A stretch of DNA of 21,303 nt. Source: a virus. The translations under genes and the position numbers were made by a program. The stretch's first letter is position 1; the number at the start of each line of letters is the position of its first letter. The stretch is from IMG/VR virus record IMGVR_UViG_3300042320_000605, positions 1 to 21,303 of that record, one strand, 5' to 3'. The notes under the pieces are model-generated. The model was not told where the DNA came from. It saw only the letters and a program-made list of their open reading frames with translations, and did not search any database. Shown in pieces: positions 1,571 through 21,255 of this stretch.

Positions 1571-3946
1571 ATGGCGACCAAGCCGTACTCCCAGAGGATC
1601 CCGTCGCTCCACAACGGGATCTCCACGCAGGCTCCGAGCAGCAGGTTCCCGAGCCAGGTCGCCGACGCCGAGAACGCCCTGTTCAACGTCGTGAGCGGGG
1701 TCTCCACCCGCGGCGGGTCCAGGCACGTCGTGACCCTCGACCAGATCGGGTCGGCGGCACTCGCGAACTCCGCGTCCGACTTCCGGTTCCACCGGATCGT
1801 CCGGGACTCGGCCGAGCGGTACCTCGTGGTCTACGGCCGCAACAACGGCGGCAACATGGACATCGAGGTCGTCGACCTCGGGAACCCGCGCAACCGGGTG
1901 CAGTACTTCACGCTCGGCTCCCCGAGCGCGGGGACCTTCACGATCTCGTTCGGCGGCCAGACAACGGCGGCCATCGCCCACAACGCGAGCGCGGCGACCA
2001 TACAGACCGAGATCCGGGCGCTCTCCACGGTCGGGGCCGGGAACGCCACGGTGACGGCGAGCGGCGCGTGGTTCGTGGTCGCATTCTCCGATACCCTCGC
2101 GTACACGGGCCTGATGACCATCACGTCGAGCCTGACGGGCGCGACGATCGACGGCCCATACGGGACGCAGTGCAAGGTCACCGGGCTGACCGGGGCGGTG
2201 CAGACGTACCTCAACGGCGGCAGCGCGATCGCCGGCGACCTGCGGCTCCTGACCATCGTCGACACCACGATCATCGCGAACTCGCAGGTGGCGACCGGGA
2301 CCACCACGTCGAACCAGGCGCTCGACGCAGCCAAGATGCCGATCAAGATGGAGCGCAGCTCGCTGGTCCCGCCGACCTTCGCGCTGTCGCAGATCACCTG
2401 GAACGCAGGGAGCGCGACCAAGACCGCGCCCGTCCCGATGCGGATGGGATCGGGCGGCGAGAAGCGGATCGCCGACGTCGCGTACCACCGCGGCAGGCTC
2501 TGCTTCGCGATGGACGAGTGGCTCGTCACGAGCCAGCCCGACTCGCTCTACAACTTCTTCCCGTTCGTGGACGAGCCGAACTACAACGACTCCAACCCGA
2601 TCGTGGCGCAGCTCGGCAGCTCGAGCGTGTCGGTGATCGACTGGATCGTCCCGTTCCGCAAGGCGCTGCTCGTCCTCACCAGGAACGGCGCGCAGTTCGA
2701 GATCGGCGGCGGGGAGACCTTCACGCCGAAGTCGGCCACCCTCACGCCGAGCACGACCTACGCGACGCAGCGGGTCAAGCCCGCGCCGATCTCGTCGTTC
2801 ATCTACTTCGCCGGCGTCCGCGAGAACACCTCGGTGGTCTACGAGTACGCCTACGACGACGTCCAGGTGTCGTACCGGGCGTCCGCGATCACCCAGCACG
2901 TCGACGGCCTCCTGCCGTCCTCCATCCGCAGCCTCGCGGCCAGCGACAACAACGACACGCTCGTGGTGGTGCCGGGCAACCCGTCGCCGAACCCGGGCGC
3001 GGCCGTGCAGTCGAACGGCCTCGGCGGCGGGCGGTGGTCCAACCCCAACACCTGGGCCGGCGGCATCTCGCCGACCGAGGGGCACGTCGCGCAGATCGCC
3101 TCCGGGGACGTCGTGGTCTTCGACGGCTACGGGCAGTCGAGCGCGAACCTGTTCATCTACCGCACGCTGCGCGTCGCGGACAAGCTCGTCCAGAGCGCGT
3201 GGACCAAGTACACGTTCAACACCGACCGCATCCTCGACGTGGCGATCGTCGAGGACACGGCCTACGTCCTGCGGATGGCGTACAACCAGCCGATCGGGAG
3301 CGGGAGCACGGCGGCGAACTACCGGGTGGTGATCGACTCCATGCCGATCTCGTCGGACCCGTCCGCGCCGGCCACGTTCGACGAGCAGCCGCGCCTCGAC
3401 CACCGCAGGGTGGTGCGTACCGGGACGGTCGCGGGCGGCTCCGTGAAGTGGCGCATCGACGCGGCCGACTACGACATCGACACGGTCTCCTCGCAGGTCA
3501 ACGGGACGTGGACCGACTACGACGCGACGGTCACGCCCGTGGCCGGATCGACCGACGCCGAGGTCAGCTGCTCGCAGACGTCGCTCTCCGACAAGCTCGT
3601 GGTCCTGGGCCGCCGCATCCCGTTCAAGGTGACCACGACGCGCCTGTTCCGCACCGACGACCAGGGCAACGCGATCGTCGAGGGCGAGCTGTTCGTCAAC
3701 AAGATCGTCACCGACCACACCAACTCCGGGCCGTACACGCTGTCGGTCTCGTCGGCGCGGCGCGAGGACCGGACGTTCAGGTTCTCGCCGTCCGAGGCGA
3801 ACATCGACAGGTACGGCCGGCTCCAGGCATGGACGCCCGGACGGGCGCAGGACATGAGCATCTCGGTGAGGAACGTGGACTCGCGCCCGGTCGTGATCAC
3901 CGGCATCGAGTTCTACGGCACGCACAACACGGCAACGGAAGGCTGA
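1571..3946 (+). CDS. Tail tubular protein B / tail nozzle (T7 gp12-like)
   Basis: The 791-residue length is close to T7 gp12 (794), which builds the tail nozzle. The N-terminus has the family pattern: a polar lead, GIS-TQAP and a Tyr/Phe-Pro-x-Q-x-x-x-x-N motif, then a Gly-Gly-Ser-Arg site where relatives have KRPP. The AWTKYTF motif near 543-549, followed by a DVAIVEDTAYVLR strand, is typical of the late propeller region. Two segments look inserted: about residues 112-193 resemble the small beta domain GTF-T-I-x-F-G-G-Q-T-T seen in tail and surface proteins, and about residues 467-521 hold a G8-like motif (W-S-N-P-x-T-W-x-G-G, then I-x-S-G-x-V-V-x-D). It follows tail tubular A directly, with a short AGGGA site. 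Confidence 0.88.
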   Translation: MATKPYSQRIPSLHNGISTQAPSSRFPSQVADAENALFNVVSGVSTRGGSRHVVTLDQIGSAALANSASDFRFHRIVRDSAERYLVVYGRNNGGNMDIEVVDLGNPRNRVQYFTLGSPSAGTFTISFGGQTTAAIAHNASAATIQTEIRALSTVGAGNATVTASGAWFVVAFSDTLAYTGLMTITSSLTGATIDGPYGTQCKVTGLTGAVQTYLNGGSAIAGDLRLLTIVDTTIIANSQVATGTTTSNQALDAAKMPIKMERSSLVPPTFALSQITWNAGSATKTAPVPMRMGSGGEKRIADVAYHRGRLCFAMDEWLVTSQPDSLYNFFPFVDEPNYNDSNPIVAQLGSSSVSVIDWIVPFRKALLVLTRNGAQFEIGGGETFTPKSATLTPSTTYATQRVKPAPISSFIYFAGVRENTSVVYEYAYDDVQVSYRASAITQHVDGLLPSSIRSLAASDNNDTLVVVPGNPSPNPGAAVQSNGLGGGRWSNPNTWAGGISPTEGHVAQIASGDVVVFDGYGQSSANLFIYRTLRVADKLVQSAWTKYTFNTDRILDVAIVEDTAYVLRMAYNQPIGSGSTAANYRVVIDSMPISSDPSAPATFDEQPRLDHRRVVRTGTVAGGSVKWRIDAADYDIDTVSSQVNGTWTDYDATVTPVAGSTDAEVSCSQTSLSDKLVVLGRRIPFKVTTTRLFRTDDQGNAIVEGELFVNKIVTDHTNSGPYTLSVSSARREDRTFRFSPSEANIDRYGRLQAWTPGRAQDMSISVRNVDSRPVVITGIEFYGTHNTATEG

Positions 3947-11497: not shown

Positions 11498-12268
11498 ATG
11501 GCGCGACGCATCGCGGCGATCAGCTGCACGCACTCGCCGTTCACGCCGCCGGAGACGCACAAGTGGCTCCTGCGGACGCTGCGCGAGGTCGGGGGAATCA
11601 GCCACTTCGTCCACCTCGGCGACGTCTTCGAGGCCAGCTCCGCGAGCGTCCACCCGAACGAGCACGACCACACGCTGCTCGACGAGTACCGCCACGCCTC
11701 CGCGTTCCTGCGGTCCATCCGCGAGGAGCTCGGCGGAAGGGTGCACTACCACGTCACGATGGGCAACCACGACGACAACCTGCGGTCGCAGGACCCGCGC
11801 CGCATCCCGAAGCCGCTCCGCGACGTGACGGACTTCATGCGGACCGAGCCGTTCGCCGCCGAGGCCAGGCACTGGCACTGGACCCCCTACCGCAAGGACA
11901 GGGCCGGGTGCCTCGAGATCGGCCCCGTCGTGCTCGCGCACGGGTTCGACGCCGGGCAGGGCAGCGACGAGCTCGAGGCGCTCCAGTTCTTCAACATGAC
12001 CGGGGCGGAGCCGTGGAGGCTCTTCGTGCGCGGGCACACGCACCGCCCGGTCGCGCCGACGCAGTGCCGGCGGTCGCGGTCGATCCCGCTGCCGTGGTGG
12101 TACTGCAACGCGGGCACCTGCGGTCCGCTGGCGCCGGGATGGATGAGCCGCAGGGACACGAGCCAGTGGGGAGCCGCGGTGGTCGTCGTCGACCTCGTGC
12201 GCGACCCGTCACACAGGAAGCGCGGGCGTCAATGGGAGGCCCGGCTCGTCAGGATGGAAGACCAGTAG
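11498..12268 (+). CDS. Calcineurin-like metallophosphoesterase
   Basis: This 256-residue protein shows the metallophosphoesterase motifs in order: SCTH (residues 9-12, in place of the usual D-x-H), GD (41-42), GNHD (89-92), a lone His in AHGF (148) and GHTH (179-182). These bind two metal ions in phosphodiesterases and phosphatases that act on nucleic acids, nucleotides or phosphoproteins. The first metal ligand is Cys rather than Asp; the rest are intact. A strong GAGGAGGAGG site lies just upstream, after a 24-base gap. Phage homologues near terminase genes are known, but their substrate is not clear to me. It probably works late in infection, with the packaging genes around it. The C-terminus is basic (KRGRQW). 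Confidence 0.87.
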   Translation: MARRIAAISCTHSPFTPPETHKWLLRTLREVGGISHFVHLGDVFEASSASVHPNEHDHTLLDEYRHASAFLRSIREELGGRVHYHVTMGNHDDNLRSQDPRRIPKPLRDVTDFMRTEPFAAEARHWHWTPYRKDRAGCLEIGPVVLAHGFDAGQGSDELEALQFFNMTGAEPWRLFVRGHTHRPVAPTQCRRSRSIPLPWWYCNAGTCGPLAPGWMSRRDTSQWGAAVVVVDLVRDPSHRKRGRQWEARLVRMEDQ

Positions 12269-18180: not shown

Positions 18181-19338
18181 ATGGTCACGCTCAACAGGAA
18201 CGGCAGGTACTGGCAGGCGCGCTGGGTTGACCCGGTCACGGGCCGCACCGTGCGGCGCGGCATCGGCCCGCGCGCGCAGATCTCGCACAGGCAGGCGGTC
18301 GCGCTCTGCAAGGTGATCGCCGACGAGGTCGCCGCCACCGCGCTGGCGTCGCTCGAGCCCGAGGCGCCGCAGGCCGACGCACCGCCGGCGTCGCCGACCG
18401 TCGCCGAGTGGCGCGACCGATGGCTCGGACAGCAGGTCGGGCTCATGGAGTCCACCATGCGGATGCACCGCCGCTACTGGCGCATGATCGTCGAGCAGCT
18501 CGGCTCCGGCACCCGCCTCGACGACGTCACGCCCGACATGGTGATCGACGCCAGGATCCGCATGGGCGACCGCGCCGACCTGCTGCACGGACCCGGCACG
18601 CTGCGGCGCGCCAAGGCCGAGACGACCATGGCCCGGATGTGCCGAAACGCGCGCAAGTACTGGCACGACGCCGTCGCCGCCGGCCTCGCCCGCCGCAACC
18701 CGTGGACCGCCGTCCGCACCACGGCGCCGGAGATCCAGGTGCCGCGCCGCGTGCTCTCCGACGCCGACGCCGAGCGCATCGTCGCCTGCTGCAAGCCGGG
18801 CGTCGCGCTGCTCGTCGCGCTCTGCCACTGGGCAGGGCTGCGCCGCCACGAGGCGATGGGCCTCCGCTGGGAGCACGTCGACTTCGAGCGCAACCGCATC
18901 GTCGTGTGGCCGAAAACGCACGTGGTGACGAGCAAGCACAAGCACAGGGAGGTGCGCCTCGAGCCGAGGCTCGCCGAGATCCTTCGCGCCGCGCCGCGCA
19001 CCGCCGACAACGTCGTCGGCAGGGTCACCGAGGCCCGCGCATGGCTCGACCTGCGCGCGGCCGCCCTCAAGGCCGGCGTCACGGGCGAGGTGTCGTTCCA
19101 GCTGATGCGCTCGAGCCGCGAGAACCACTGGTTCGCCGCCGGGTATCCGGCGAACGTCGTGACCGCATGGATGGGACACTCGCCGCAGGTCGCGGCCAAG
19201 CACTACCGAGGGGTAGCCGAGCAGTACTATGACGCCGCGCCACAGGGCCAGGCACCGGGATCCCAGGCCACCGAGCTCGCCGCCCTCCGCGCGCAACTCG
19301 CGGCGCTGCAGGCGCTCATCCTCGGCAAGGCCGGCTGA
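18181..19338 (+). CDS. int: Tyrosine recombinase (phage integrase)
   Basis: This 385-residue integrase recombines phage and host attachment sites. A beta-rich arm-binding start (NRNGRYWQARWVDP) leads to a core-binding helix bundle at about residues 73-180, then the catalytic domain. Visible catalytic residues: Arg221 in GLRRHE, Lys252/254 in SKHKHREVRL, Arg310 in FQLMR, His333 in WMGHS and Tyr342 in KHYRG. Box II has Gln (307) where many family members have His; I recall this in a subgroup with (Q/H)-x-L/M-R-x-S. The C-terminus adds a short Leu-rich coiled-coil tail. A GGCAGGGGG site lies upstream. No attachment site can be fixed from this window and no repressor gene is seen. Confidence 0.93.
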   Translation: MVTLNRNGRYWQARWVDPVTGRTVRRGIGPRAQISHRQAVALCKVIADEVAATALASLEPEAPQADAPPASPTVAEWRDRWLGQQVGLMESTMRMHRRYWRMIVEQLGSGTRLDDVTPDMVIDARIRMGDRADLLHGPGTLRRAKAETTMARMCRNARKYWHDAVAAGLARRNPWTAVRTTAPEIQVPRRVLSDADAERIVACCKPGVALLVALCHWAGLRRHEAMGLRWEHVDFERNRIVVWPKTHVVTSKHKHREVRLEPRLAEILRAAPRTADNVVGRVTEARAWLDLRAAALKAGVTGEVSFQLMRSSRENHWFAAGYPANVVTAWMGHSPQVAAKHYRGVAEQYYDAAPQGQAPGSQATELAALRAQLAALQALILGKAG

Positions 19339-19368
19339 AAGATTCAAGAAAGTTTCCTCGTTTTGCCG

Positions 19369-19396
19369 TTGACAGGATTCGGCGGGCGTTTACATT
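19369..19396 (+). promoter_or_regulatory. Sigma-70-type promoter of the recombination operon
   Basis: TTGACA (19369-19374), 16 bases, TACATT (19391-19396; 4 of 6). It lies 30 bases after the integrase stop, with no terminator between. A small inverted repeat ATTG...CAAT (19394-19407) overlaps the -10 and could be an operator. Confidence 0.72.
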
Positions 19397-19414
19397 GCCG
19401 CCACAATCGCGGAC

Positions 19415-19490
19415 GTTCACCGTAAGAACGACCGCAACGCGCAACAGGCGCGTGTGTTTCGGTCCTTTCTGGCCCATTCACGCGCGCCAT
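19415..19490 (+). promoter_or_regulatory. Structured leader of the recombination operon
   Basis: The leader holds GTTC-ACCGTAA-GAAC (19415-19429), then a perfect hairpin ACGCGC-AACAG-GCGCGT (19437-19453). The 3' side of that stem, GGCGCGTG (19447-19454), can instead pair with CACGCGC (19479-19485). Two exclusive folds upstream of a ribosome site suggest attenuation or translational control. The GC-rich words could also pair by chance. Confidence 0.4.
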
Positions 19491-19510
19491 GACTCCCCAA
19501 GGAGGGGATC

Positions 19511-20431
19511 ATGGCAGGAAGCACAGAGGTAATGGTGGCGCCGGCCCAGCCGGCGCCACACACGGGCACGGCGCTGGCCGCGCACGGCAACGGCTACGAC
19601 CCCATGGTCGTGGCGAGAATCTTCCGGGCATCGGGGCTCTTCCCTGACATCCAGAGCGAGGCGGCGGCGGCCGCGAAGCTGATCGTCGGCCGGGGGCTCG
19701 GCCTCAGCGACTACGACTGCATGGCGGGGCTGCACCTCGTCAGCGGCAAGGTCGTGCTGGCCGCGAACCTGATGGCGGCGGCCATCAAGCGCGCAGGCCG
19801 CTACGACTACCGCGCCGAGTGCAGCGACGAGCGGTGCGACATCACCTTCTTCCAGCTCGACGGCGGGAAGTGGCAGACGATCGGCACCACCAGCTTCACG
19901 CTGGCCGACGCCAAGCGCGCCGGCCTCGACGGAGGGCAGAACTGGCGCAAGCACCCGCGCGCCATGCTGTTCGCGCGATGCATCTCGATGGGCTACCGCC
20001 AGCACTGCCCTGACGCGCTCGGCGGCGCGCCCGTGTACGTCGAGCAGCACGGGGAGATGGAGATCCAGGACGACCGGGCCATCACGGCTCCGGCGGCGCC
20101 CGCGCCCGCCACGACGGACCGCGCGGCGCCGCCGGCGGCCACGGCCCCGGCGAGGCGCGACAACCTCGAGGACGAGGGAGAGGCCGAGTTCTGCGTCGCC
20201 GAGGTCGAGGTCGCCAAGACGGGCGAGGGCAAGTTCGGCGCCTGGGAGCTCGTGGTGCTGAAGACGGTCGAGGGACCGTCGTTCTCGACGCTGAACAAGC
20301 GCATGGCGCAGCAGATGCGCGACGCCGCCGAGAACGGGGCGCGCGTGCGCGTGACCTGGGCGCGCACCAAGAAGGGCGGCCTCGAGTGCAAGGAGCTCGT
20401 GCAGCTCGCCGAGACGGGGGACGGCCAATGA
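19511..20431 (+). CDS. RecT-like single-strand annealing protein
   Basis: Residues about 45-185 match a phage RecT-like pattern: AAAAKLIVGRGLGLS, HLVSGKVVLAANLMAAAIKRAGRYDYR, a SFTLADAKRAGL block, NWRKHPRAMLFARCISMG and a GGAPVYV end. Such proteins anneal single strands and work with a 5'-3' exonuclease in phage recombination and replication. An Ala/Pro linker (about 190-215) joins a second domain (about 218-302: EFCVAEVEVAKTGEGKFGAW, then VRVTWARTKKGG) whose strand pattern could be an OB-fold or similar; this addition is uncommon. A strong AAGGAGGGG site precedes the ATG. The stop overlaps the nuclease start (ATGA). The family call rests on remembered motifs; a functional analogue of different fold remains possible. 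Confidence 0.78.
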   Translation: MAGSTEVMVAPAQPAPHTGTALAAHGNGYDPMVVARIFRASGLFPDIQSEAAAAAKLIVGRGLGLSDYDCMAGLHLVSGKVVLAANLMAAAIKRAGRYDYRAECSDERCDITFFQLDGGKWQTIGTTSFTLADAKRAGLDGGQNWRKHPRAMLFARCISMGYRQHCPDALGGAPVYVEQHGEMEIQDDRAITAPAAPAPATTDRAAPPAATAPARRDNLEDEGEAEFCVAEVEVAKTGEGKFGAWELVVLKTVEGPSFSTLNKRMAQQMRDAAENGARVRVTWARTKKGGLECKELVQLAETGDGQ

Positions 20432-21255
20432 TGGGCTCCCTTCCCAAGCCGGGCTGCTACGCGAACATCGCTTCCGAGGAATACCACTCCTGGCCGGCGG
20501 CCTCGAGCACCGTGATCCGCACGATGATCCGGTCGAGCCCGGCGCACGCGGCCGCCGGCACGGTCGATCCGCAGAGCCCGGCGCTGCGTCTCGGCACCGC
20601 CGTCCATGCCGCCGTGCTCGAGCCCGTCCGGTTCGACGGCCTGATCCGCATCGAGCCGAAGGTGGACCGCCGAACCAAGGAGGGCAAGCAGCTGTGGGAC
20701 TCGTTCCAGCAGTCGCTGATGCCCGGGCAGACGTCGATCAGCGACGAGCAGTTCGAGGTGGTCCGGTCCATCGAGCGGAACGTGCGGGCGTCGGCCGCCT
20801 GCACCGAGCTGCTGTCACACGCGAGGAATCGCGAGTACTCCGTGGTCTCGGAGGTCGAGGGCGTGATGTGCAAGGCCCGCTGCGACGCCTGGGGCGACGG
20901 CCTGGTGGTCGACGTGAAGACCACCTCGTCCCTCGCCTCCGAGGAGGAGTTCAGCCGCACGGTGTTCTCGTGGGGCTACGCGCTCCAGGCGGCCTTCTAC
21001 CGGATGGTGCTCGACCGCGCGGGGCTGCGGATGGACTCGTTCGCCTGGATCGCCTGCGAGACGAACCCGCCCTACGCGGTCGCCTGCTACGCGATCGGCA
21101 ACGAGGTGCTCGACCTGATGGAGCCGGCGCTCGTCAAGGCGCTCCACCGCTGGAGCGACTGTGAGACGCGCAAGGAGTGGCCGGCTTACCCGGACGTGGT
21201 GCGGCACCTCCAGGTGCCGGCATGGATGCGGCGCGAGCTCGAGGAGGCGACCTGA
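20428..21255 (+). CDS. PD-(D/E)XK exonuclease, RecE/Exo VIII-like
   Basis: This 275-residue protein carries the RecB/RecE-type nuclease motifs: LRLGTAVHAAVLEP (residues 53-66, with His60), the metal ligand Asp153 in KARCDAW, Asp162-x-Lys164 in VVDVKTTSS, and Gln187/Tyr191 in ALQAAFYR. It also has the N-terminal YHSWPAASSTVIRT helix of the DUF3799 group. It would degrade the 5' strand and hand the 3' overhang to the RecT-like partner encoded just before it. Two ATGs lie in tandem at 20428 and 20431; the first overlaps the previous stop (ATGA) and is preferred. The pair of genes in this order is the usual arrangement in temperate phages. Confidence 0.88.
   Translation: MMGSLPKPGCYANIASEEYHSWPAASSTVIRTMIRSSPAHAAAGTVDPQSPALRLGTAVHAAVLEPVRFDGLIRIEPKVDRRTKEGKQLWDSFQQSLMPGQTSISDEQFEVVRSIERNVRASAACTELLSHARNREYSVVSEVEGVMCKARCDAWGDGLVVDVKTTSSLASEEEFSRTVFSWGYALQAAFYRMVLDRAGLRMDSFAWIACETNPPYAVACYAIGNEVLDLMEPALVKALHRWSDCETRKEWPAYPDVVRHLQVPAWMRRELEEAT

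Follow-up and report, generated by a model that had tools for sequence, protein, structure and literature searches.

The window analyzed here, a stretch of 21,303 bases from an IMG/VR virus record, carries on its plus strand (1571..3946) a gene for a 791-aa nozzle protein (tail tubular protein B) of the T7 gp12 type, identified by Pfam, PHROG, and structural alignment. Pfam Phage_nozzle (PF25675) matches the protein with E = 3.2e-66 and 224.5 bits against a cut-off of 27, PHROG 457 (tail protein) matches it at 8.9e-77, and a sequence search of the PDB returned T7 gp12 at 3.9e-20. An AlphaFold2 model (mean pLDDT 74.7) aligned with T7 gp12 (9jyz_P) in VIA-align over 571 residues with Z = 25.7 and an rmsd of 4.3, and alignment and model together give the gp12 fold with its seven-bladed propeller; the WD40 proteins that also appeared in the VIA-align rows share only the common propeller and were rejected. 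Upstream, two adaptor (tail tubular protein A family) genes stand in tandem (405-992 and 992-1570, both PHROG 446), where T7 has a single tail tubular protein A gene. Sequence, fold, and gene order after tail tubular protein A are shared with T7 gp12 and Phage_nozzle, whereas T7 gp12 lacks both a 59-residue insert in blade 7 and an Ig-like stretch at residues 107-208. The latter (window 1889-2194) matches chains of PDB 9d93/9d9w (gp23 of the tail tip cage, gp19 of the tail tube, and capsid), which we take to be Bxb1-type, as well as PHROG major tail proteins, and from these matches we read it as a probable decoration domain, the Ig-like label being likewise our assumption. The nozzle of one relative, L029, has a similar stretch at a different place in the protein.

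The blade-7 insert is sharply placed. The strand before it, NDTLVVV (residues 461-467, 2951..2971, plus strand; strand 463-468 in the model), is, judged against T7, strand B of blade 7, and the strand after it, LFIYRTL (residues 527-533, 3149..3169, plus strand; strand 526-535 in the model), is strand C. Between them, alignment places 59 residues (468-526, 2972..3148, plus strand) where T7 gp12 has a 7-residue turn, SHGDPSK, starting at its residue 516 in an alignment with ten phage-collection nozzles. A preliminary description of this DNA had quoted a motif at residues 467-521 (2969-3133), all of which the translation of 1571-3946 contains, and had held that the strands ending in LVV and beginning LFIYRTL are adjacent in T7-type relatives; so they are, except that a short turn lies between them. 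The motif W-S-N-P-x-T-W-x-G-G-x-x-P ... I-x-S-G-D-V-V-x-x-D is kept across 16 inserts picked from 24 (the window included; the remaining 8 being duplicates or near duplicates of these), with G27, W35, and I49 invariant and S30, P41, G52, D58, and Y70 nearly so (piece numbering). Most inserts are 59-61 residues long, and the longest are found in L029 (72), L060 (78), and L066 (86). The insert has a GC content of 75% against 68% for the nozzle, and a GC3 of 1.0 against 0.98, which gives no sign of recent import.

Outside its motif, the insert changes quickly. Between the window and L005, the propeller differs at 12% of its residues and the C-terminal part at 33%, but the insert at 42%; the window and L010 differ by 34% in the insert and 12% in the propeller, and L050 and L052 by 26% and 10%. 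Among the more diverged pairs compared, most show the insert outpacing every other region of the nozzle, L008/L009 being an exception. Rapid change around a kept motif would suit a small scaffold whose surface varies.

Standard searches pass over this stretch. Pfam G8 (PF10162) found no match in the window, whether with the whole protein or with the insert (cut-off 22.9 bits), nor did Pfam, PHROGs, or NCBIfam return G8 for the whole nozzle or the window insert; weak Kelch, FmdA, and similar matches below cut-off were rejected as chance. A profile of the inserts returned a chitinase alone from the PDB sequences, at E = 0.66. When the 16 inserts were scanned alone with Pfam G8, 4 gave matches below cut-off (best E 0.003, 17.9 bits), and these begin at profile position 1 and end by position 37 of 124. 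For a direct comparison, G8 domains were chosen by the Pfam model alone from genomes drawn evenly from three phyla (Pfam G8 matches in 3/299, 14/198, and 8/149 genomes), and 28 domains were used with 20 upstream residues added, excluding genomes reached through the motif. They replaced a first G8 set picked via a WSxPxTW motif, whose high score was circular. A tblastn search of plasmids with the L008 insert served just to find G8 sequences; it returned 6 records at E 0.2-5, none significant, of which three are annotated as G8 domain proteins, one as an oxidoreductase, one as hypothetical, and one carries no feature.

Against the 28 G8 domains, hhalign gave the insert profile a probability of 97.7 and a score of 67.8, while 300 column shuffles reached at most 18.5 and eight other nozzle blocks, set against the insert as a control comparison, scored 7-11. 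On E-values scaled to a total of 24,736 targets, a profile of the 28 domains picked up the window insert (1.8e-8) and 14 of the 16 inserts at E<=3.5e-4, and hmmsearch with 16 full-length G8 domains placed the match at residues 481-519 (2.3e-6) and found 13/16 inserts at E<=0.01. Shuffled inserts (n = 1600) scored no more than 8.0 bits, compared with 34.9 for the window insert, and among 287 six-frame pieces of the window, the nozzle frame ranked first (1.7e-7). L060 and L066, whose inserts are the most distant ones, did not match significantly with the 28-domain profile (0.015 and 0.19), nor did L029, L060, and L066 with the 16 full-length domains (0.92 for L060, 7.9 for L066); these failures, together with the lack of a Pfam G8 match in the window, count against homology with G8.

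The homologous part, as delimited by hmmsearch and hhalign, comprises residues 481-520 (3011..3130, plus strand) and corresponds to the Trp-bearing segment with which G8 domains and their beta-helix relatives begin. Insert and G8 domain share GxWSxPxTWxGGxxPxxxxxVxIxxGxxVxxD, and the likeness is confined to the first ~37-42 residues. According to one review, a full G8 domain has about 120 residues in five strand pairs with eight conserved glycines (PMC9600181). In the Pfam family, which includes CEMIP, TMEM2, fibrocystin, and bacterial secreted proteins, the remaining two thirds of the 124 positions are present, whereas the insert aligns over ~37 positions, measures 59 residues overall, and lies within a turn of the propeller rather than at the start of a beta-helix. 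The insert is not a whole G8 domain. In the crystal structure of TMEM2, the G8 region is described as belonging to one unbroken right-handed beta-helix that begins at the N terminus (PMC10206443).

Searching in the opposite direction, the insert profile overlapped Pfam G8 places in 7/8 cases among 149 genomes and 16/16 among 198, or 23 of 24 in 347. At E<=0.05 it matched 33/149 and 67/198 genomes, many of these matches lying in proteins outside the Pfam G8 list at 1e-5. Such proteins from Bacteroidota and Planctomycetota (among them L194, L195, and L197), which have no Pfam G8 at E<=1e-5, carry the same module as the nozzle insert, and those of L194 and L197 share even its lead-in, SNGxGGGxW; the module often opens a large protein there, whereas it is internal in the nozzle. 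In many of the 28 bacterial matches printed, it comes right after an apparent signal peptide, judged by eye, and so at the start of the mature protein. Thus the relative of the insert is the opening segment of proteins that look like secreted beta-helix proteins, G8 being the part of them that has a name. Residues upstream of the Pfam G8 model read GxWSxP or nearly so in most G8 proteins, as they do in the insert: the Pfam model begins too late, at TW, omits this conserved segment, and misses a wider cap-bearing set (L174-L223).

Five scans gave 32 distinct IMG/VR records with related nozzles, 6 of which (L011, L058, L059, L063, L064, L067) stop short of the site. The insert is present in 23 of the 26 that can be read there and absent from L062, L065, and L068, and it was found in none of the 14 phage-collection nozzles read. 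At this turn, two marine phages (Pelagibacter phage HTVC201P and S28C10) show expansions that are smaller and unrelated, and the site looks tolerant of insertions (L032-L040, L157-L160). In a tree of 30 nozzles built with the insert cut out, the 14 with and the 16 without it are split by one branch with 100/100 support; the tree omits insert-bearing copies, near copies, and partial sequences (L002-L004, identical to the window, and L006, L008, L009, L028, L049, L053, and L057), along with the insert-free L065, which trimming had shortened. Since a single branch separates the two sets, one old gain is the simplest account, under which the insert would be a long-standing part of one T7-like nozzle clade and extend beyond this phage alone.

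An 85-residue piece of the window in tblastn against phages returned 4 records at E = 8 (two cyanophages, each twice), which were not used; the L029 nozzle as query returned only itself; and no relatives were found in genome contigs that might have pointed to a host through proviruses. In 10 IMG/VR records, the insert profile matched the nozzle only, once each, and Pfam G8 gave two sub-cut-off matches in the same records, both in nozzles; a source common to the insert and a tail fiber of the same phage was therefore rejected for these records. A gene survey of a 42 kb relative offered no explanation for the insert. Literature searches found no title concerning phage tails among those on G8 domains and no title describing this insert among those on T7-like nozzle insertions or Ig-like nozzle domains.

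Taken together, it is highly probable that the insert shares ancestry with the cap and initial strands at the N terminus of a G8-type right-handed beta-helix, with the rest absent, and that it is an old insertion in one nozzle clade. The preliminary description had proposed a G8-like fragment without counterpart in T7-type nozzles, which the hhalign score, the shuffles, and the insert-free relatives bear out (3 of 26 from IMG/VR and all 14 from the phage collection). A G8 domain in the proper sense is not what lies here, only its first third; and of the profile search proposed as a check, the Pfam model misses the window, while the Pfam-selected G8 sets match it at 2.3e-6 to 1.8e-8.

What the insert does must be considered in light of where it sits. 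In the usual order of propeller strands, the B-C turn is on the opposite face from the C-D loop. T7 gp12 is described as a seven-bladed propeller with C504 in blade 7 and C554 in blade 1, its tightest DNA gate (gate 2, D478) being in a loop of blade 6 (PMC6702177). The T7 gp12 residue numbering was checked against the sequence, and these blade assignments put the insert at the turn joining strands B and C of blade 7, next to the blade with the gate. From the published text and strand order rather than from coordinates, it would lie on the propeller face opposite the gate loop. The propeller planes are reported to be radial, and the strongest contacts between protomers to be made by propeller loops (PMC6702177). 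A place between or beside protomers would therefore be favored over a knob facing the host. The insert itself is modeled with low confidence, with block-mean pLDDT of about 47-66 in context and 45 when folded alone.

The insert may form a short, Trp-stabilized beta-arch on the B-C turn of blade 7 that serves as a protein-protein contact inside the tail, a reading to which we give a little less than an even chance. The arch would most likely contact neighboring nozzle protomers, a preference that follows from the part played by propeller loops in the strongest inter-subunit contacts of T7, or else another tail protein, and this contact could help keep the tail closed until ejection. The low pLDDT of the insert leaves the arch a prediction, and its rate of change speaks against the role, since a structural contact might be expected to change slowly, yet the insert mostly changes fastest. 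The explanation as a whole, a clade-restricted G8-type cap insertion with a contact role within the tail, strikes us as evenly balanced between right and wrong. We can also imagine, as a rather improbable extension, that six caps around the propeller ring make a six-fold docking ring that meets a beta-helical partner end-on (an accessory tail protein or spike) or in which the caps meet each other, so that a module for starting a solenoid is reused as a latch, freed when the nozzle untwists for DNA ejection.

An outward-facing module, capping the outside of the nozzle and binding a glycan or protein of the host surface, would suit a loop position, the extracellular location of G8-bearing proteins, and the rapid change of the insert outside its motif, and a review reports that the G8 domain of CEMIP binds annexin A1 (PMC9600181). 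The motif residues themselves are kept, unlike a receptor site under diversification; no sugar-binding family matched the insert at a meaningful E-value in Pfam, PHROG, NCBIfam, or PDB sequences; and blade 7 adjoins blade 6, described as lining the channel (PMC6702177). Receptor binding is possible, though unlikely, and a structural or protein-contact role is more likely than glycan binding. The adhesion module for host glycans put forward in the preliminary description is unsupported, the G8 region of TMEM2 being the start of a beta-helix (PMC10206443) and the insert's blade lying beside the gate blade (PMC6702177).

It is just as doubtful that the insert extends into the channel and constricts it close to gates 2 and 3. 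Its blade adjoins the one that bears gate 2 (D478) in T7 (PMC6702177), and the related phage P-SCSP1u is reported to have one more gate, formed by a loop of its nozzle platform (PMC10575957), but the B-C turn would be on the opposite propeller face from the gate-2 C-D loop, and a Gly/Ser/Trp-rich insert is unlike the T7 gates, described as negatively charged residues in tight loops (PMC6702177). Least probable among these alternatives is that the loop grew independently and came to resemble the cap motif by convergence, with no common descent with G8 and no definite function. The expansions in HTVC201P and S28C10 and the unreached Pfam cut-off would allow this, but it sits poorly with ~37 columns aligned at E 1.8e-8 to 2.3e-6, with bacterial proteins that have the upstream lead-in as well, with a reverse search recovering nearly all G8 places, and with a motif kept across an old clade.

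The nozzle protein itself is of known type; what is new is a G8-type cap within it, a real feature that the standard Pfam search overlooked. Its presence suggests that modules have passed between beta-helix proteins secreted by bacteria and the central DNA-ejection machinery of T7-like phages, at a spot that only a short turn occupies in the T7 nozzle. If the insert is a latch or docking point, it would offer a clear place to test how podovirus nozzles stay shut.

Several other features of these genomes deserve mention. In the Curvibacter phage PCA1 (L074:305-3250), a G8-like stretch (residues 17-107, E = 0.0075 with Pfam G8) opens the protein encoded right after the annotated tail fiber gene. 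Between the virion genes and the terminase, the window encodes a metallo-phosphoesterase (11498-12268; PHROG 221, 4.6e-8), for which PADLOC gave no match at E<=0.01. The insert-free nozzle frame of L065 (2153-5872) encodes 1240 aa with a long C-terminal extension that is lectin-like in appearance, of the LamG/concanavalin type by eye. Finally, an integrase, a RecT-like annealing protein, and an exonuclease VIII are encoded at 18181-21255 of the window, and their presence beside T7-type tail genes may indicate a temperate lifestyle.
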